Shown one piece after another: positions 3,757 through 53,949 of a DNA stretch of 64,000 nucleotides. How positions within the stretch are numbered: position 1 is the stretch's first letter; every line of letters starts with the position of its first letter. The notes under the pieces were generated by a model, which did not search any database, was not told the DNA's origin, and was given only the letters and a program-made list of their open reading frames with translations. This stretch comes from a virus. The position numbers and the translations under genes were made by a program. The stretch covers positions 1 to 64,000 of the IMG/VR virus record IMGVR_UViG_3300046313_000683; one strand, 5' to 3'.

Positions 3757-4311
3757 TCAATCGCGCAAAAACTCACGCCAATCTAAATCATACTGGATTG
3801 GATCAATGTCGTGAACACCTATCAAGTACAATACATAACTTGCAATACTACTTCCACGCCCAACTCCCCAAGGGATCTCATTATCCTCTAGCGTATCGAC
3901 TATGTACGCTAGTGTGCGCAACATATCTTGCTTGCGGTGTGTTAGGAACCACTCCATCTCATCATCGTACCGGTCAACACACTTTGTGTGATTGTGGACT
4001 GGTTGTACTTTGAGATCCTGAATTAATAGTGCTTTTGTATACTTGACAATGTTTAGTGTGCGATACTGAGCAGGTAGAATGAATTTCGGAGGCAGTACCA
4101 TGTAATCGTCGTCAGTAGGAGTTGTTACGGGAACGTCAGCAAAGCGATTGTACTGATCAATCGGTTTCGTGAGTTCGTTCACACGAACGGGGGCACCTGA
4201 TTGTAGCAAATTAATGACAAGCGGGTGAGGAGGATCAAACAACTTAGGGTCGACAATGCTGACACCAGTGTACGTCAACTCACGTTTGTCAAGCTGAGTT
4301 GTATTTTGCAT
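3757..4311 (-). CDS. DNA polymerase III alpha (DnaE)-like fragment
   Basis: 184 residues from ATG 4311; an upstream TTG is possible. The C-terminal third, IPWGVGRGSSIASYVLYLIG and then DIDPIQYDLDWREFL, closely matches the DnaE/PolC palm segment GxGRGSA..S....LGITD.DP..Y.LLFERFL. The protein stops there, so the catalytic PDxDxD aspartates that follow in DnaE are missing, as are PHP and fingers. It cannot be a polymerase alone. It might bind primer-template or host replisome parts, or be a relic fixed as an independent gene. It overlaps no neighbour and follows a conserved helical protein. Confidence 0.7.
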   Translation of the reverse strand: MQNTTQLDKRELTYTGVSIVDPKLFDPPHPLVINLLQSGAPVRVNELTKPIDQYNRFADVPVTTPTDDDYMVLPPKFILPAQYRTLNIVKYTKALLIQDLKVQPVHNHTKCVDRYDDEMEWFLTHRKQDMLRTLAYIVDTLEDNEIPWGVGRGSSIASYVLYLIGVHDIDPIQYDLDWREFLRD

Positions 4312-6783: not shown

Positions 6784-7952
6784 TAGTAAAATCCAACTCT
6801 ACGCTTCGTTGTGGTGCGTCGCGCTTGCTTGGTGTGGTTATAAAGTTGAGCAAGGGAATATTCCTCACCAGGTGTCGGAGACCAATTTGTGATATTGTGA
6901 TCTTTGCAGAATGCAATCGACTCTGCACAGTTGAGTTTACGAAAATTGATAACAGCGTAGCATCGTCCAGGACGCAACAAAGCGGCGTCAATATCATCTA
7001 GTTTTTCTAAATTAGTTGAAAAAATCATCTTCTTACCATTCATAGAAACGATACCATCCGCCACATTGAGAAATTTTGTCATCATCAAATTACCTTCTGT
7101 GCGGGCGCCCAGAAAAGCGTCAGCATCTTCCATAATTAGAGAGCCATAATCTTCCTCGATAAAGTTAGCGAAAATATGATCTTTTTTCATCACTTCAGGA
7201 TCGTAGGTGATGAGAGCATTTTTTCTCGACTTCGCGATGATGTGTTTAATTAAATTTGATTTCCCCGAACCAGGAATTCCTAGTAATAAGAGAACATTTT
7301 CACTGGACGCTAGGAAGTCTTGCACAAACTGCTCGACACCTTCTTCAATAAAAGGATATGAACTATCTGTTATACCTTGCGGAGCACGTAGTGGGATTGT
7401 TGTCATGCCGCTATCCCCACCAATCACCCAATCGATTGTGGTGGCAATCTCGACGTAGTCTGCTAGCAGTGTATTCAGAACTTGATCAATAAGGTCTTGA
7501 TCTCCCAACACTTCAACGTACGATGAATTAGAGTTGGTGCGACAGCTAATAATACCACGACCTTCTACTACGATTTGTGCTCGTGAACTCGACTGACTAA
7601 TCAACGTATATTTGGAGCTTGTTTTAGCGAGAATTTTACACAAAACAGCAGGTAAGTTCGGAACAATTTCGAGTCTTACTTCGTCCCCGTAAATGTGAGT
7701 GCCTGTAGTAAGCCTGTTCATTACGAATTCGTTTTGAATATAATCACTAAATTCAGTTTCTACGTACGATAACATTGTCAGGTCCTTTTGTTGGATTGAT
7801 ACAGCAGCAGCGAGGTTTCCGGGATGCAGTGATTTCAGCTTGCGCCGCCGCAACTTAGTGGAACGTACTGTTCTGCGTTGAGTTGGTTTAGATGCGGATA
7901 GTTCCCGAAGAATACTGTCGAGGGTTTTGCTAGGAATTGTAATGTCACTCAC
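6783..7952 (-). CDS. AAA+ ATPase
   Basis: 389 residues. Central AAA+ domain: Walker A GIPGSGKSN (about residue 228), Walker B SLIMEDADAF, sensor 1 MIFSTNLE, and LRPGRC with the arginine typical of BCS1/Cdc48-like ATPases (ALLRPGR). The N-terminal ~200 residues are unlike anything I recognise and may bind a substrate. Similar proteins are common in large T4-like phages without an assigned role. Its position between uvsW and uvsY suggests DNA transactions. Confidence 0.75.
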   Translation of the reverse strand: MSDITIPSKTLDSILRELSASKPTQRRTVRSTKLRRRKLKSLHPGNLAAAVSIQQKDLTMLSYVETEFSDYIQNEFVMNRLTTGTHIYGDEVRLEIVPNLPAVLCKILAKTSSKYTLISQSSSRAQIVVEGRGIISCRTNSNSSYVEVLGDQDLIDQVLNTLLADYVEIATTIDWVIGGDSGMTTIPLRAPQGITDSSYPFIEEGVEQFVQDFLASSENVLLLLGIPGSGKSNLIKHIIAKSRKNALITYDPEVMKKDHIFANFIEEDYGSLIMEDADAFLGARTEGNLMMTKFLNVADGIVSMNGKKMIFSTNLEKLDDIDAALLRPGRCYAVINFRKLNCAESIAFCKDHNITNWSPTPGEEYSLAQLYNHTKQARRTTTKRRVGFY

Positions 7953-8410
7953 AGCACTAGGTTCCCATCAATAGATGCAACTTTTGATTTAACAATCGCA
8001 TTCAACATAAATCCCTTTTGCTTCAGAGCCTCACACATCGCTTCATATTTTTCTTCCATCTCCATTACTGCATGAAAGATGGATTTTAACTCATTAACAC
8101 GATCCTCCGTGTTAATGTACTGTTCTTTATCACGATACTGTAGCTCGCGCGGATGTTTCTCTGTGTAGTGTTTCCAATACTTGCCGCGAGTTTTATCGAT
8201 TACCGTCTCAATGTGTTTACGAATGCTTCGCAGTTCCGCATGACGGATTGCATAGTGCCCTACCCAACTCGCTTGCTCAATCAGTGATTGGTCAAGTGTA
8301 ATACCTTTGATCTTCAAGTGCTTTGCTGCATCTTTGAAGTCATCATCCATTTTATCTAATATGGTTGCTAGGTTTTCGAAATTGGTGCCGAGGTCGGCTA
8401 GAATAGTCAT
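7949..8410 (-). CDS. uvsY: UvsY-like recombination mediator
   Basis: 153 residues, nearly all helical and rich in Lys/Glu. The middle (GKYWKHYTEKHPRELQYRDK) and the C-terminal helix (EEKYEAMCEALKQKGFMLNAIVK) follow the layout of T4 UvsY (137 aa), which helps load UvsX onto gp32-coated ssDNA. Similarity is by pattern only, but position among uvsW, uvsX and gp32 supports it. Confidence 0.7.
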   Translation of the reverse strand: MTILADLGTNFENLATILDKMDDDFKDAAKHLKIKGITLDQSLIEQASWVGHYAIRHAELRSIRKHIETVIDKTRGKYWKHYTEKHPRELQYRDKEQYINTEDRVNELKSIFHAVMEMEEKYEAMCEALKQKGFMLNAIVKSKVASIDGNLVL

Positions 8411-34734: not shown

Positions 34735-34857
34735 TGATAATTGAGGGTGGTGCGCTATTCGTGCGCAGGTGAGTACTTTGGTGCCCATGCTCGGTACCGA
34801 GCCGAGTTTTCCAGTTTTAGAGACTGACACTTCACCTTAAAGTTTCATGGGCGCATC

Positions 34858-37999: not shown

Positions 38000-38584
38000 T
38001 TACGACATGCGCCACCGTGGGCGATTTGGTTGAGATAAATTGGGTTGGAAAGTCGAATCATATTGGGCGGCGATCCCTTGTAGATGGTGATCACTAATCA
38101 CAAAACCAGGGGCACTATTTTTGGCAGCGCCTACATATCGTGTAGTTGATGTTTCATAATCATTTATCCCCATTCCTTTTCGTTTTCGTATTACTTCAAG
38201 CAATAAACTGGTAGGGACATCACGCATAGCAATTGGGGAAATTGCAACTATGTATTGCCAACTTTGGTGATCAATTTCAGATAAAATCGCATTGGCACAA
38301 GCCCCTACGATGTTAGCCATATCAGATTTCTGTTCATCGAACCATTCGTATGGTTTACCAATCCACTCTACTTGTTCAATAAATTGTACCCCGTCCCATA
38401 TCGCAATATGCGGAACAATCCCCAAAATATTATCTATGATAACTTGATCTAATGTCAACTGCACTTTATACTTGCTGGACAGTACTGTATCGATGCACGT
38501 ATTTTCTTCCCATACAACAGGAGAATCAAATTGAGTATAATACTCCGGAAAGTATTGCAAGCGGCCTGGGTTGATTGCATCCAT
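38000..38584 (-). CDS. 'AKD..R..LY' family protein, divergent copy
   Basis: 194 residues. Aligns by layout with 38584-39126 and 42507-43007 (VVWEENT, VPHIAIWDG, NIVGACANAIL, WQYIVAISPIAMRDVP) but lacks the AKD motif. The two genes overlap by one base, so they look like a tandem duplication with one copy decaying or specialised. Confidence 0.55.
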   Translation of the reverse strand: MDAINPGRLQYFPEYYTQFDSPVVWEENTCIDTVLSSKYKVQLTLDQVIIDNILGIVPHIAIWDGVQFIEQVEWIGKPYEWFDEQKSDMANIVGACANAILSEIDHQSWQYIVAISPIAMRDVPTSLLLEVIRKRKGMGINDYETSTTRYVGAAKNSAPGFVISDHHLQGIAAQYDSTFQPNLSQPNRPRWRMS

Positions 38585-39126
38585 TACCGAAATACCTGTG
38601 AAGCAAGTTGCCTGATCGGCTCCATGTCCTGCTGCCGTGCCATAACTACGCCACCACTGTGTCGATCAGCCACGGACCCGACTACCATATTGTAATGTGA
38701 AGCAAACCGAGAAAATAATGCAGTATACAAGCGCACTCGTCTTGGGACACTATCTTTTGCTTCTGCATACATAAAATCCCAGTGGGTGGGCAGATCTCCT
38801 CGCAACACATTGATTACGGCACCAAATATTTGCCCTGTTGGAACAGTTGGTGCCGAACCAATGTCGTAAGCGTATTCTGTAGCACCAGGTGCAAGTATGC
38901 CAAATTCAACACCCGCTCCAATGAGATTGAGTGGAGCAATGTGAGTAAATTTAACCGACACCACTACACTAAGCTCTCCTAACTGACCTACACGGAGATG
39001 CGTATTTGCATCAGATTTTTTGTGCCACGAGGACAGATTAGTGAGATTAGTATCAAAATTCGCCTCTGCTAATTGATTTAGTATTTGGTTAATTTTCACC
39101 GATTTGCTTTCTATTGCTTGTTTCAA
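38584..39126 (-). CDS. 'AKD..R..LY' family protein
   Basis: 180 residues. IFGAVINVLRGDLPTHWDFMYAEAKDSVPRRVRLYTALFSRFASHYN is the family core, repeated in the products at 42507-43007 and 53057-53566. I have seen related proteins (AKEPSR..LY) in many large phages, with unknown roles. N-terminal ~60 residues are family-variable. Confidence 0.6.
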   Translation of the reverse strand: MKQAIESKSVKINQILNQLAEANFDTNLTNLSSWHKKSDANTHLRVGQLGELSVVVSVKFTHIAPLNLIGAGVEFGILAPGATEYAYDIGSAPTVPTGQIFGAVINVLRGDLPTHWDFMYAEAKDSVPRRVRLYTALFSRFASHYNMVVGSVADRHSGGVVMARQQDMEPIRQLASQVFR

Positions 39127-40313: not shown

Positions 40314-40337
40314 AAAAGGCTCCAATTGGAGCCTTTT
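40314..40337. terminator. bidirectional terminator
   Basis: Perfect stem AAAAGGCTCC AATT GGAGCCTTTT between the plus-strand lipoprotein operon and the minus-strand tRNA/TROVE transcript; U-runs on both strands. Confidence 0.9.
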
Positions 40338-40341
40338 AACT

Positions 40342-40449
40342 TGGTGGGACCCCCCGGGTTCGAACCGAGGCCTTAGGAATTATTTTGAACACCCGCTTGT
40401 GCAGATGCTCCGTAAGAGTTCCCAGCACTACCAATTATGCTAGAGTCCC
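40342..40449 (-). tRNA. tRNA-Lys(CTT) with 32-nt anticodon-loop insertion
   Basis: Acceptor GGGACTC/GGGTCCC, A73 and encoded CCA; D stem GCAT/GTGC with GG in the loop; anticodon stem GGGAA/TTCCT; five-base variable loop; T arm CTCGG TTCGAAC CCGGG. The anticodon loop (40418-40380) is 39 nt instead of 7. Removing 32 nt at any of three equivalent points leaves CTCTTAA, the standard Lys(CTT) loop; another split would give CTCATAA (CAT). The insert forms a 7-bp hairpin CATCTGC ACAA GCGGGTG. It resembles an intron but no splicing system is evident. Confidence 0.75.
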
Positions 40450-40477: not shown

Positions 40478-41911
40478 TTATTTCACATCATATCGCGGTA
40501 CACAGACGGATTTGATCATTAATGCATATGGTGTGAAATCATCTGGATCCGCACTCAGAATGCTTGCTACAATCGCTGGGCTAAACCCCGATACAAGTGC
40601 TGCGCCCTGCTCATTGGCTGTCACAGGTACGTTACCTTTGTGATTTAGATTCCACCACACCAACTTTGGGCATGTGTAGTTGGCTGCAGCATATTGAGTT
40701 CGCACGCTTTCCATCGCACTATCGTTTGCCTCTGCTGCCTCATTGAATTGCATGTCGGACATCACACACAAGATTTCTGGCATTTCACCTTGAGGTACGT
40801 TACCAGCAACAGCGACTTCCAAAATCTTAGCAAGTGCCTTGACAATGTCAGTGCTCATGTCCCATTTGCTACGATCCATTGTTTCCAAACGATCCATCAC
40901 GTCACCAGTTAGGTGCAGTAGTTCAGGATCTTCGGAGAACGTCAGGAACATATCTTTAAACTTACCAGTATTCTTTTCAGACAGGTACAGACCGAGTGAT
41001 AGTGCAACATCGTGGCAAGTCACTGAAGTGTCTCCACCAGCTGGGCAATTCATCGAACCAGATACATCAACTAATGGCAAGATACTCGCATTACCTACGT
41101 AGTTTGGTAGTGCTGCCCACTGTGCATTCACATGAGCACGAATCGTTGGATCAATGCGAGAAGAATGCCAGCCTTTGATCACTGTGTACGGGAAGATTGC
41201 GCTTGAGTTTACCTTTACGGACGGATCGCCTTTGGTCAGTTTTTCAACATATTCAGTAAACACAACGGGAGCATTTCTTTTAAATGCTTTTTTGTAACGT
41301 GAGGCAGCAACAGAAGGCACGTGGCTAAAGTTGATGTTATCCCAATCCTTCGCACACATCTGTGTTTCGGTAACAGTAGTATTAGCAGAAGCCAGCTTAC
41401 GGTACTGACGAGGAGTCAATCCGAAGAATGAACGGAGTTCTGCTGCGAGACGCTTCTTTGCGCTTTTTTCACGAGGTAGGAATTTGTAGAATAGTCCATT
41501 ACCGTTGCGAAGTTGTTCCCCATATACAGTAAATGCATAGTTACGAACCCCCACTGTCTTCCAATTGATCAACATATCATCAGCACGCCCAATTTCTGGA
41601 ATCTTATCGATTAGTGCTCGTACTTGCTGATCTTGATTCGTAATTTCCAAGTGAGCAAGAATATCTTTGAAAATTTGACGCTCTCCTGCTCCACCACGAA
41701 TGTCACGGCTCCATTGTGCGATTCGCAGTGCAATTTCCATGTTTTCTGCATAGGCTGCTTTAAACAATGGAATAACGTCTTTACCACGCATCGCACCGAT
41801 CGCATAGAAAAGTTGAACACAAGCGTTACCAGTGCCAGCGAATGCTTTCATGCCATTGGTTGTTGTAGTTGGTTGAGTTAAAACTGCGTGTGCAAATGTT
41901 GCTGTTGTCAT
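40478..41911 (-). CDS. TROVE/vWA Ro60-like protein (DUF2828-like)
   Basis: 477 residues. N-terminal helical-repeat part with SRDIRGGAGERQIFKDIL and LIDKIPEIGRADDML; C-terminal von Willebrand A domain with MIDAS motif DVSGSM and later MSDMQF. This is the order of domains in Ro60/Rsr, which cradle misfolded RNAs and Y RNAs; bacterial Y RNAs include tRNA mimics. Assignment to the DUF2828/TROVE-like group is by motif. It is the gene nearest to the tRNA island and is co-directional with the intron-like tRNA-Lys downstream. Confidence 0.7.
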   Translation of the reverse strand: MTTATFAHAVLTQPTTTTNGMKAFAGTGNACVQLFYAIGAMRGKDVIPLFKAAYAENMEIALRIAQWSRDIRGGAGERQIFKDILAHLEITNQDQQVRALIDKIPEIGRADDMLINWKTVGVRNYAFTVYGEQLRNGNGLFYKFLPREKSAKKRLAAELRSFFGLTPRQYRKLASANTTVTETQMCAKDWDNINFSHVPSVAASRYKKAFKRNAPVVFTEYVEKLTKGDPSVKVNSSAIFPYTVIKGWHSSRIDPTIRAHVNAQWAALPNYVGNASILPLVDVSGSMNCPAGGDTSVTCHDVALSLGLYLSEKNTGKFKDMFLTFSEDPELLHLTGDVMDRLETMDRSKWDMSTDIVKALAKILEVAVAGNVPQGEMPEILCVMSDMQFNEAAEANDSAMESVRTQYAAANYTCPKLVWWNLNHKGNVPVTANEQGAALVSGFSPAIVASILSADPDDFTPYALMIKSVCVPRYDVK

Positions 41912-42290
41912 GTCTATGTGCTCCTTGATATAAGCCGGGTTACTGTTTTATTTTCAGTACAAATGAAGATGGTGGCTGGAAGTAACCCTAAAATTAAACG
42001 GGAAGCCTTTTTACGGGTTAGATTAAAAGTCTAGTGTATAAAGTTGGCTGCAAGCTTCCCTAAAATAACTAACGGGGTGGTGCGGTCGATGCAAATTGTT
42101 TTAGCAATTCTTTACACTTTTCAGTGTGCTTGTTTTTTTCATGCAGAGCCTACCATTCTCTGCCATATCTCTGTCATGTCTGGACAGGCACATATCTAGT
42201 CGAGTTTCCAGACAAGCTGGAAATTATCAAACTATCAGTCCATTTTAATTTATGTTGCTGGATCCACCCCTGGATCTGGTTAAACAGAGT
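41912..42290 (-). ncRNA. non-coding stretch with consecutive hairpins
   Basis: No supported gene. Perfect hairpins include GCAGAG/CTCTGC (from 42142), CTGTC/GACAG with a 7-base loop, TTTCCAG ACAAG CTGGAAA and GATCCA CCCC TGGATC, in close succession. Two related stretches with CCCTAAAAT lie at 41984-42065. The arrangement resembles the multi-hairpin modules of the RNA island; strand and boundaries are uncertain. Confidence 0.35.
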
Positions 42291-42506: not shown

Positions 42507-43007
42507 TCAATGTTGAATGTTATCGATTATGTCTTGACAACTATACTGTTTAGAGACTACTGCAATCCCTATATTGTTAACAACTCCAGAACCGTACTGC
42601 CAACTATTTGACCGAGCGATTCGTTCCACGATGCGAGTGTATAACTTCATCCGGATTGGAACAGCATCTTTTGCATCTGCTACAATAAAATCCCACTCGT
42701 ACTCATTTAACCGATTAAGCAGGGCGTTTGTAACCGCACCAATTACTTTTGCAGAACTGATCGTTGATACAGCTCCAATGTGTTCAACATAATCAGTACC
42801 GTTCCACAATAAGAAACCAACTCGCAATCCTGATAACTGCTTATATGTTATGGCTGATATCACCAGTTTGAGATTAATGCTTCCACCATCGATTGAACAC
42901 TTGCAGATATCCTGCTGATGCTCTTGCTCCCACACAACTGGTTCATCTAGTCTCGTATTCAGCATCTCCATTACTGGAAAACTTTCTAATATTTGCGTTA
43001 TTTTCAT
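42507..43007 (-). CDS. 'AKD..R..LY' family protein
   Basis: 166 residues from ATG 43007 (MKITQILESF). Core: KVIGAVTNALLNRLNEYEWDFIVADAKDAVPIRMKLYTRIVERIARSN. Paralogue of 38584-39126 and 53057-53566. Upstream frame extension is unlikely. Unknown role. Confidence 0.6.
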   Translation of the reverse strand: MKITQILESFPVMEMLNTRLDEPVVWEQEHQQDICKCSIDGGSINLKLVISAITYKQLSGLRVGFLLWNGTDYVEHIGAVSTISSAKVIGAVTNALLNRLNEYEWDFIVADAKDAVPIRMKLYTRIVERIARSNSWQYGSGVVNNIGIAVVSKQYSCQDIIDNIQH

Positions 43008-43277
43008 TGCCAAAAATATCCTAATATTGTGTAGGCTTTCCACCTACCTGGGAGGTTTGAGCCCGCTGTTCCGGCTTCGAACTTACGCATCCGCTAGTAG
43101 TAGGCTATTAACCCTAACTTAGACACTAGGGAGTCCTGTTAAATCAGGCATTCCTTACAGCAAGTGCATGCTTCAACGCTTACGTACCTTCGCTCCACAT
43201 GCACCGTTCTTTTGTCCACTCCACTATTGCAGTTCTGTCTATTACCAGACCGGAATTCGGGCAGAACTGCTCATAAA
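43008..43277 (-). ncRNA. non-coding stretch with inverted-repeat modules
   Basis: No gene seen. Contains GTGCATG/CATGCAC closing a 26-base interior, and GCAGTTCTG/CAGAACTGC (9 bp) closing two small inner hairpins (TCT..AGA and CCG..CGG), a three-way junction. Same style as modules at 47.8-58 kb. Confidence 0.35.
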
Positions 43278-43559
43278 TCAATCATCACATAAAGCGTCCT
43301 TGTGCTCAACATACTCCTGTAGTCGATCTTGAAACAATCGTTGTTCTTGAATAGTGAGCTCGCCTGTTGCGCGACGTGGATTCATGCACATTACGCAATT
43401 GCTGTTACCACAGGTTGCGAATGATCTCTTGTGATAGACGTGTGGCTCTTTTACCACTTCTTTGAATATTTGTTTCGATAGCGTCCACTGACGATGAGTA
43501 CGCGTTTGCTTGTTGTGGATCCGCTTGCTATGCTTGACTTTGTCCTGCTCTGTGCTCAT
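43278..43559 (-). CDS. conserved phage protein with CxxCxN motif
   Basis: 93 residues from ATG 43559 (MSTEQDKVKHSKRI). CGNSNCVMCMNPRR followed by ELTIQEQRLFQ is a pattern found in small phage proteins; probably zinc-binding. Overlap-free with the next gene. Confidence 0.6.
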   Translation of the reverse strand: MSTEQDKVKHSKRIHNKQTRTHRQWTLSKQIFKEVVKEPHVYHKRSFATCGNSNCVMCMNPRRATGELTIQEQRLFQDRLQEYVEHKDALCDD

Positions 43560-44637: not shown

Positions 44638-45072
44638 TTAGGCGAGTACTGCTTTGACCACAGTAGAAGCCATCTTACCATCATACTGGCCTTCGTGTCG
44701 TGTCTTCAATAGACCCATCACTTTGCCCATATCTTTTTGTCCAGCATTCAGTTCAGCCTTGATAGCAGTCACTGCTTCGGTCAGTTGCTGTTCGTCCATT
44801 TGACGCGGTAGAAAGTGTTCCAGAACAACGCGTTCGTCTTGTGCAGCCTGTGCACGAGCATCTTCCACACCAAGTGCTTTGATTGTTTCGTCAATGTTCT
44901 TGATAAACTTTTTGATTGTTGCAACCACTTCTGCATCAAGCACTTCACGGCCAGCATTCTTGCCGACCATTTCTGCTTCACCGATGAGGGTAGTTAGCAG
45001 TGATGCCATTGGACCATTTCGGTCCTTACGAGCAGTCAACTGCGCAGACTTGATTTCTGTAATAAGGCTCAT
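44638..45072 (-). CDS. GatB/YqeY-like protein
   Basis: 144 residues, all helical: MSLITEIKSAQLTARKDRNG..ASLLTTLIGEAE, KKFIKNIDETI, FLPRQMDEQQL and GKVMGLLKTRHEGQYDGKMAS. This is the YqeY family, related to the tail domain of amidotransferase subunit GatB that contacts tRNA. The function of stand-alone YqeY is unclear; a tRNA link is plausible given the island. Confidence 0.75.
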   Translation of the reverse strand: MSLITEIKSAQLTARKDRNGPMASLLTTLIGEAEMVGKNAGREVLDAEVVATIKKFIKNIDETIKALGVEDARAQAAQDERVVLEHFLPRQMDEQQLTEAVTAIKAELNAGQKDMGKVMGLLKTRHEGQYDGKMASTVVKAVLA

Positions 45073-46387: not shown

Positions 46388-46510
46388 TCATATTATTCCA
46401 CTATCTATCACTATCACTTTGTACACAACGGGGTAGTTGTTAGCTGCTTGTTTTAACTGGGCAACAACTCCAGTTTGAGATCGTTGGGCAAGCCCATTGA
46501 CTTCAGCCAT
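46388..46510 (-). CDS. possible small protein, 40 residues
   Basis: ATG 46510 to TGA 46388: MAEVNGLAQRSQTGVVAQLKQAANNYPVVY... Fits a gap between two tRNAs. No ribosome site is clear. Confidence 0.4.
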   Translation of the reverse strand: MAEVNGLAQRSQTGVVAQLKQAANNYPVVYKVIVIDSGII

Positions 46511-46554
46511 ATTTTAAGGTTGCTGAACCTACCCCTTTTTGTAAGTATGCATAG

Positions 46555-47730: not shown

Positions 47731-47844
47731 TGGTGGGGAGGGGTGGCCACGATCCACCGACATGCGCATATCTACTAACAGAGCCATAAAGCCGGCCTGT
47801 CTCTGCATTCGATTACGTTGCTCTGCCAACTGAGCTACCTCCCC
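47731..47844 (-). tRNA. tRNA-like gene with ~38-nt anticodon-loop insertion
   Basis: Acceptor GGGGAGG/CCTCCCC, A73, encoded CCA; D arm GCTC AGTTGGCA GAGC perfect; T stem GGTGG/CCACC with loop ATCGTGG (54/58 exchanged from T/A to A/T). Anticodon stem ACGTA/TGCGC (4 pairs) encloses 45 nt that includes a CAGAG/CTCTG hairpin. Removing 38 nt leaves ATCGATA, anticodon CGA, but the short variable loop does not fit Ser, so identity is open. Confidence 0.6.
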
Positions 47845-48009: not shown

Positions 48010-48011
48010 GG

Positions 48012-48129
48012 AAAGTTGGATGGGGCTCGAACCCACACTTTGCCAGCGGTTTACGAGGAAAGGTTTTGGCGTCCTTCTCGAAGATAAATTCCTCTAACCG
48101 CTTATGTTTACCAATTACATCACCAACTA
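48012..48129 (-). tRNA. tRNA-like gene with ~41-nt anticodon-loop insertion
   Basis: D arm ATGT AATTGGTAA ACAT, T arm GTGGG TTCGAGC CCCAT, anticodon stem AGCGG/CCGCT (perfect) and a six-pair acceptor (AGTTGG/CCAACT). The anticodon loop is 48 nt; it contains stem GAGGAA/TTCCTC directly inside the loop. Removing 41 nt can leave TTGTAAA (Tyr GTA) or TTAGAAA, so the anticodon is ambiguous. Flanks TTTTATATG/CATATAAAA extend the acceptor. Confidence 0.6.
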
Positions 48130-53770: not shown

Positions 53771-53844
53771 ATATTGAAACACACTGTTACACTTGTGCAC
53801 CAAATAACGACCCTCATACGAGAATCGCCAGTGTGTTTCAATAT
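53771..53844 (-). ncRNA. inverted-repeat module, 14-bp arms
   Basis: Arms ATATTGAAACACAC/GTGTGTTTCAATAT perfect, interior 46 bases with a CTC/GAG hairpin. It directly abuts the tRNA-like gene at 53847-53949. Confidence 0.5.
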
Positions 53845-53846
53845 AG

Positions 53847-53949
53847 CGCGCTTGGTGGGATTCGAACCCACGTCCAACAGAGCCAGTGCTTTTACGGCGT
53901 ATCGTGCCATCATAGCTGGGTGACCTTCTAACCACTGAATTACAAGCGC
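53847..53949 (-). tRNA. tRNA-like, possibly tRNA-Ser(GCT), long variable region
   Basis: Acceptor GCGCTTG/CAAGCGC perfect, D loop AGTGGTTA, T arm GTGGG TTCGAAT CCCAC. Total 103 nt. The best anticodon arm is TCACC CAGCTAT GATGG (one mismatch, A at position 33), anticodon GCT, leaving a 35-base variable arm. An insertion elsewhere with another anticodon is possible. Confidence 0.6.

Follow-up and report, generated by a model that had tools for sequence, protein, structure and literature searches.

We analysed a window of 64,000 nucleotides, positions 1 to 64,000 of the virus record IMGVR_UViG_3300046313_000683 (109,810 bases), around a gene at 40478–41911 on the minus strand. The gene is predicted to encode a Ro60-like protein, and RNA modules with a common terminal element, the handle, lie directly upstream of it and between two tRNA genes in the same window. 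We consider it probable, at about 0.72, that gene and modules form a phage Ro60–Y RNA system, in which the handle RNAs act as adaptors of a Ro-type ribonucleoprotein (RNP) and display tRNA mimics. The elements concerned are as follows, where R1 is a covariance model trained on other phages only.

40478–41911, minus strand: gene for the predicted Ro60-like protein (DUF2828 plus DUF7788 vWA, PHROG_850), 477 amino acids, with the metal ion-dependent adhesion site (MIDAS) motif DVSGSM
41937–41988, minus strand: handle-RNA module M3, 52 nucleotides, GGGUUAC-UUC-CAGC...GUAACCC; R1 E = 4e-4
42000–42060, minus strand: handle-RNA module M2, 61 nucleotides, GGGAAGC-UUG-CAGCCAA...GCUUCCC; R1 E = 5e-6, and fold
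42074–42270, minus strand: handle-RNA module M1, 197 nucleotides, GGGGUGG-AUC-CAGCAAC...CCACCCC-GUUAG; large structured payload
46430–46535, minus strand: handle-RNA module M4, 106 nucleotides, GGGGUAG-GUU-CAGCAAC...CUACCCC-GUUGU; R1 E = 8e-5, fold z = –2.0

The open reading frame 41911–40478 was confirmed as a real gene with a product of 477 amino acids. In profile searches this protein matched DUF7788 (E = 2e-41), DUF2828 (E = 3e-23) and PHROG_850, 'RNA-binding protein' (E = 2e-128). The MIDAS signature DxSxS is present, and its residues D282, S284 and S286 are invariant in 48 sequences. Relatives of the protein are encoded in 680 of 50,697 phage records, and several of them are annotated as Ro-like RNA binding protein. 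The nearest relative, on contig L031, is 78% identical to the window protein. Close relatives of the virus are scarce, because the DNA pattern of module M1 matched the L031 contig only. Pfam TROVE (PF05731) gave no match to the protein up to E = 0.1, and no Ro60 or TROVE chain was recovered by sequence when the family profile was compared with solved structures. The protein is therefore filed as Ro60-like by its predicted fold, outside the Pfam TROVE family.

An AlphaFold2 model of the protein, built on 48 sequences, reached a predicted local distance difference test (pLDDT) score of 79 and a predicted template modelling (pTM) score of 0.80. All six Foldseek matches at E ≤ 1e-3 were Ro60, Rsr or TROVE structures (E = 1.1e-7 to 5e-6). 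When model residues 12–458 were compared with Ro60 (1yvr) by VIA-align, 401 residues were aligned with Z = 17.1, ring and vWA domain together; the best non-Ro match was another vWA protein, with Z = 10.4. According to the model, the 477-residue protein is a full-length Ro60 fold, with a ring of helical repeats plus a vWA domain. The original prediction had called this a TROVE/vWA-type gene and had made its case depend on an RNA-binding ring. The structure comparison bears it out, since both ring and vWA domain of the model align with Ro60, yet the protein is without a Pfam TROVE match.

We recognised the handle by comparing the sequences upstream of the gene across 80 viral relatives, where a recurring pattern consists of seven nucleotides, three nucleotides, C(A/C)GCA and a variable stretch, closed by the first seven nucleotides in reverse complement and then GU. 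A strict scan of these relatives detected 192 handles on the Ro-sense strand, compared with 3 on the antisense strand and 1.8 in shuffled sequences. The consensus of 191 modules is UUUU-AGGNUNN-NU(U/A)-CAGCAA ... NNANCCU-GUU. The handle thus written comprises a 7-bp stem that joins the two ends (A-G...C-U, then GU) and, beside the 5′ strand, three single-stranded nucleotides followed by CAGCAA. Changes on both sides were seen at five of the seven stem pairs, and slid controls were 29–49% paired; the 100% pairing of the stem itself is expected, exact complements having been selected, so that a meaningful comparison is with the antisense strand and with shuffled sequences. We rejected a CAAC/GUUG pseudoknot spanning the handle, because both of its sides are poorly conserved. 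The 'skipping-rope' RNA motif, a possible match for which the literature gave one unrelated paper only, had no match in L020 at E ≤ 5. Of the modules, 25% have upstream of them a sigma-70 promoter that deviates by no more than one mismatch, against 0% in shuffles. These promoters often end 7–9 nucleotides ahead of the handle, and transcription would therefore start at the handle.

In the window, M1 to M3 are arranged in tandem from 42270 to 41937, directly 5′ of the Ro-like gene, and M4 is the module that sits between two tRNA genes. Model R1 recovered four of the five modules of this genome, with E values of 3e-10 to 4e-4. The fifth module was noted at 90324–90260 of the record, outside the window, with a perfect-consensus handle and a payload hairpin UUUGA-CUUUUCU-UCAAA. 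M1, the one that R1 does not recover, is supported by the strict scan, by folding (z = –3.4; none of 200 shuffles equalled its stability) and by conservation in L031. The stem of M2 shows a compensatory change relative to L031, and as payload M2 carries a mimic of an anticodon stem-loop, UAGA-CUUUUAA-UCUA (Lys UUU-like). None of the window modules is assigned to a family by Rfam at the gathering score. At the same score, among the matches listed, tmRNA models in L077 are the only non-tRNA family named for modules in relatives; the L077 element at 1658–2002 is a permuted tmRNA (RF04321, 85 bits) upstream of the Ro-like gene. Two further observations concern this region. A structured noncoding stretch at 43060–43300 (minus strand) is without an obvious handle, and its GGAGCGAAG..ACGUAA..GCGUUGAAG recurs in the large payload that an L011 module carries. 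In L031, an apparent insert at 800–1440, homing-endonuclease-like by appearance only, splits the third handle module upstream of Ro, and a second insert lies between the Ro gene and the tRNA.

The payloads fall into size classes. Short modules (49–66 nucleotides) carry hairpins with 7-nucleotide loops, and an anticodon-type loop (U33, purine 37, A38) was present in 21 of 50 nonredundant short modules, compared with 0.33 in shuffles. Modules of 84–101 nucleotides include tRNAs in which the handle takes the place of the acceptor stem (L068, L052). Within the class of 105–145 nucleotides, 18 of 34 contain a circularly permuted tRNA with its acceptor closed by a loop, and shuffles gave none. The permuted-tRNA modules are matched by the Rfam YrlA model (RF02553) below its cut-off, for example in L020 (38.4 bits) and, beside Ro, in Enterococcus phage SHEF13 (E = 5e-10); the best score was 44.9 bits, against a cut-off of 69. 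The longer payloads are structured. These tRNA-like domains were seen in modules of the relatives; the window itself offers only the anticodon stem-loop payload of M2.

The modules might instead be cis-acting leaders, that is, structured 5′ untranslated elements by which the Ro-like protein would regulate its own mRNA, and not free RNAs. The last module is often found 76–90 nucleotides ahead of the start codon, and M3 ends 25 nucleotides ahead of the Ro ATG, both of which fit a leader. However, modules also occur 3′ of Ro (Mycobacterium Lolly9, Staphylococcus, Klebsiella), inside tRNA arrays, and at distances of 8–10 kb or 48 kb. Many have promoters at their own 5′ end, and payloads made of tRNA parts would be unusual for leaders. 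We regard this explanation as unlikely.

The handle adjoins Ro in phages of Listeria, Mycobacterium, Staphylococcus, Enterococcus, Bacillus, Campylobacter, Klebsiella and Cronobacter. Mycobacterium phage Lolly9, which grows in M. smegmatis mc2 155, carries three handles no more than 300 nucleotides from Ro. When R1 was run on 1.35 Mb outside its training set, 20 of its 26 matches at E ≤ 1 were within 1.5 kb of a Ro gene. In whole phage genomes outside the training set, 8 of 14 matches were within 1.5 kb and all 14 were on the Ro strand. The majority of viral Ro loci are located in tRNA arrays of the same strand and the payloads mimic tRNAs and anticodon arms, as would be expected if handle RNAs were Ro-independent decoys or processing units of phage tRNA arrays that share with Ro a common tRNA island and nothing more. 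This is improbable on two counts. Handles were found in 8 of 13 Ro loci on contigs assigned to bacterial genomes (several of them short and metagenome-derived, and possibly phage), and seven of the eight have no tRNA gene in the locus. Moreover, R1 finds no handles in 32 Ro-less T4-like records, although T4 has a tRNA cluster: it gave one match (E = 0.046) against 1.6 expected, in a set called Ro-less by a single profile (no DUF7788), PF25043 being silent in 14 of 14 of its control genomes as well. The T4 stable RNAs rnaC and rnaD are also without a handle. In Listeria phage P100plus (L096), an RtcB-type RNA ligase gene at 6818–8029 lies 1.3 kb from the Ro-like gene, echoing bacterial rsr-yrl-rtcB operons.

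As read from sequence, the handle-RNA pattern is that of stable RNAs which a Ro-like protein would bind. Direct support covers the fold, the handle, the payload classes, the co-occurrence with Ro and the promoters; that the protein binds by way of the handle, and which enzymes it engages, is what we infer beyond these. The DUF2828/DUF7788 protein is predicted to have the ring and vWA domain of Ro60, and its most likely ligands are a family of small RNAs, which it would bind by their common handle. Each RNA would present a different payload on that handle, whether an anticodon stem-loop, an acceptor-less tRNA, a circularly permuted tRNA with a closed acceptor, or a larger domain, so that the RNP would display tRNA-like surfaces lacking a 3′ end that can be aminoacylated. 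The likeliest use would be to recruit or tie up tRNA-acting enzymes, such as host anticodon nucleases, modification or repair enzymes and exonucleases, and the outcome may be survival of the phage's own tRNAs.

Several observations weigh against a Ro60–Y RNA system. The match to Ro60 is distant, at 13% identity, and the protein model is of low confidence near residues 180–187 and 390–395. M2 and M3 deviate from the handle consensus (CAGCC for CAGCA, and a GGG start), a look for sigma-70 sites ahead of the window modules gave none, a YrlA search of this genome was negative, and the window modules are without a clear permuted tRNA. Furthermore, the Ro-bearing phages Synechococcus B23, Felix-like radambza, Aeh1, Wae14 and Lak-A1 have no strict handle within 4 kb of the gene; their partner RNAs may lie elsewhere or have diverged.

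The region 3′ of the gene contains two more elements.

40345–40449, minus strand: tRNA-like RNA, 105 nucleotides, 3′ of the Ro gene; RF00005 44.6 bits, fold z = –2.7
40314–40337, minus strand: intrinsic-terminator-like hairpin directly past the tRNA-like RNA; consensus match only

The tRNA-like RNA begins 28 nucleotides 3′ of the Ro-like stop codon and has an insert of about 32 nucleotides, with its own hairpin, in the anticodon loop. Its syntenic counterpart in L031 (positions 3849–3924) is an ordinary tRNA-Met(CAU), and sequence comparison makes the 105-nucleotide RNA a tRNA-Met relative with an anticodon-loop insert. That this RNA is itself the Y RNA, with the insert as its Ro-binding part, is very unlikely: it lies directly past Ro on the same strand, is structured and is unable to decode as it stands, but the L031 counterpart is an ordinary tRNA, the acceptor is open with CCA and no handle is present, and similar insertions occur in three other tRNA-like genes far from Ro. 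In these four genes (40449, 47844, 48129 and 53949) the anticodon loop is replaced by a long insert. In the three distant ones (47731–47844, 48010–48129 and 53844–53949, minus strand) the anticodon arm is extended by about 20–50 nucleotides, and the acceptor and T arms are intact. The insert-bearing genes are odd, but nothing links them to the Ro-like protein, and nothing identifies tRNA-like genes that end in a free CCA as Ro ligands.

The original prediction had placed a set of tRNA-like RNAs without decoding ability beside the gene. This holds for the four genes with inserts, of which 40449–40345 adjoins it, but many tRNA-like genes at 46–63 kb carry standard anticodons (Leu, Cys, Pro, Trp, Ala, Asn, Met). 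The suggestion that the modules are Y-RNA analogues fares better in kind than in detail. The comparison supports handle RNAs with tRNA-mimic payloads, some matching YrlA, which lie beside this protein family and are missing from Ro-less phages, but the RNAs originally meant were probably in part the wrong ones; the likeliest Ro ligands (42270–41937 and 46535–46430) had not been named.

Other genes on the minus strand of the window deserve mention. A tRNA-like gene at 34779–34852 has a CUA anticodon (tRNA-Pyl according to ARAGORN) and is a possible amber suppressor. A YqeY-like protein, with a tRNA amidotransferase-type domain, is encoded near the tRNA island at 44638–45072. Paralogous proteins (27% identity, E = 8e-19) are encoded at 38584–39126 and 42507–43043, flanking the Ro region.

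The general kind of phage Ro protein with Y RNAs is treated here as known, because Chen et al. in 2014 reportedly described Y RNAs near Ro60 in phages. What appears to be new is that the RNAs of the DUF2828 branch share a handle, that their payloads range widely and extend to bare anticodon stem-loops, and that they resemble the Class I RNAs described below; these points were not found in the literature searched, which covered the Y-RNA literature in part. If the Ro60–Y RNA reading is correct, a large and mostly unnamed phage protein family becomes an RNP system whose ligands follow a defined code, and a group of noncoding phage RNAs that escape tRNA finders acquires a name. Unchargeable anticodon-loop and whole-tRNA mimics would also be candidates for the protection or control of tRNA during infection by tRNA-rich phages.

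Class I RNAs, reported only from dictyostelids, have a short end-joining stem, a start AAG, an end CUGU, a conserved 11-nucleotide motif and a variable remainder (Kjellin et al. 2021, PMC7919456). Their motif (...UUACAGCAA) follows the 5′ stem, and the 191-module phage consensus likewise has a stem that joins the ends, a terminal AG...CUGU, a UUACAGCAA-type motif and a variable remainder. The Class I model RF01414, which has no connection with this work, matched modules at E ≤ 0.05 in 18 of 26 Ro-bearing viral records (best 5e-6), compared with 3 of 32 Ro-less ones; all phage matches are below the Rfam cut-off (best 35.4 bits, against 41.5). The Dictyostelium RNAs differ in being eukaryotic and 42–65 nucleotides long, in having the RRM protein Rnp1A/Cibp as their known binder, and in a spacing between stem and CAGCAA about one nucleotide longer than in the phage handle. 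The likeness could be convergence. We suggest only tentatively that phage handle RNAs and Class I RNAs belong to a single class, bound by Ro60-like proteins of the DUF2828/DUF7788 branch through a universal handle and exchanging their payloads freely; Class I RNAs would then be unrecognised Y-type RNAs. If so, both an origin and a candidate protein partner could be assigned to these abundant RNAs.

That phages encode Ro60 proteins, and that Y RNAs can mimic tRNA, has been described in outline (PMC7824862, PMC7765460; structure 9l5y), and a review of jumbo phages connects phage ROT/TROVE and a tRNA-like partner to RNA repair (PMC7824862). A phage-encoded Ro60 fold is common to the present protein, Thermus phage phiLo (9l5y), Vibrio phage pir03 and the jumbo-phage ROT/TROVE proteins; the TROVE locus of pir03 contains no handle. 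In Ro60–Y RNPs of other systems Ro is tethered to effectors, and it has been proposed that the tRNA mimic of YrlA competitively inhibits an anticodon nuclease (PMC7790460). Bacterial Rsr/YrlA (RF02553) shares with the phage locus the Ro60 fold, noncoding RNAs beside the gene, stem-joined ends and, in many relatives, a tRNA mimic that matches YrlA. It differs in its protein, the phage one being DUF2828/DUF7788 without a Pfam TROVE match, and in its RNAs: the phage CAGCAA handle is common to many RNAs per phage, and the payloads range far beyond the YrlA domain. The phage version would thus extend the YrlA idea to one protein and one handle with many displayed tRNA-like surfaces.
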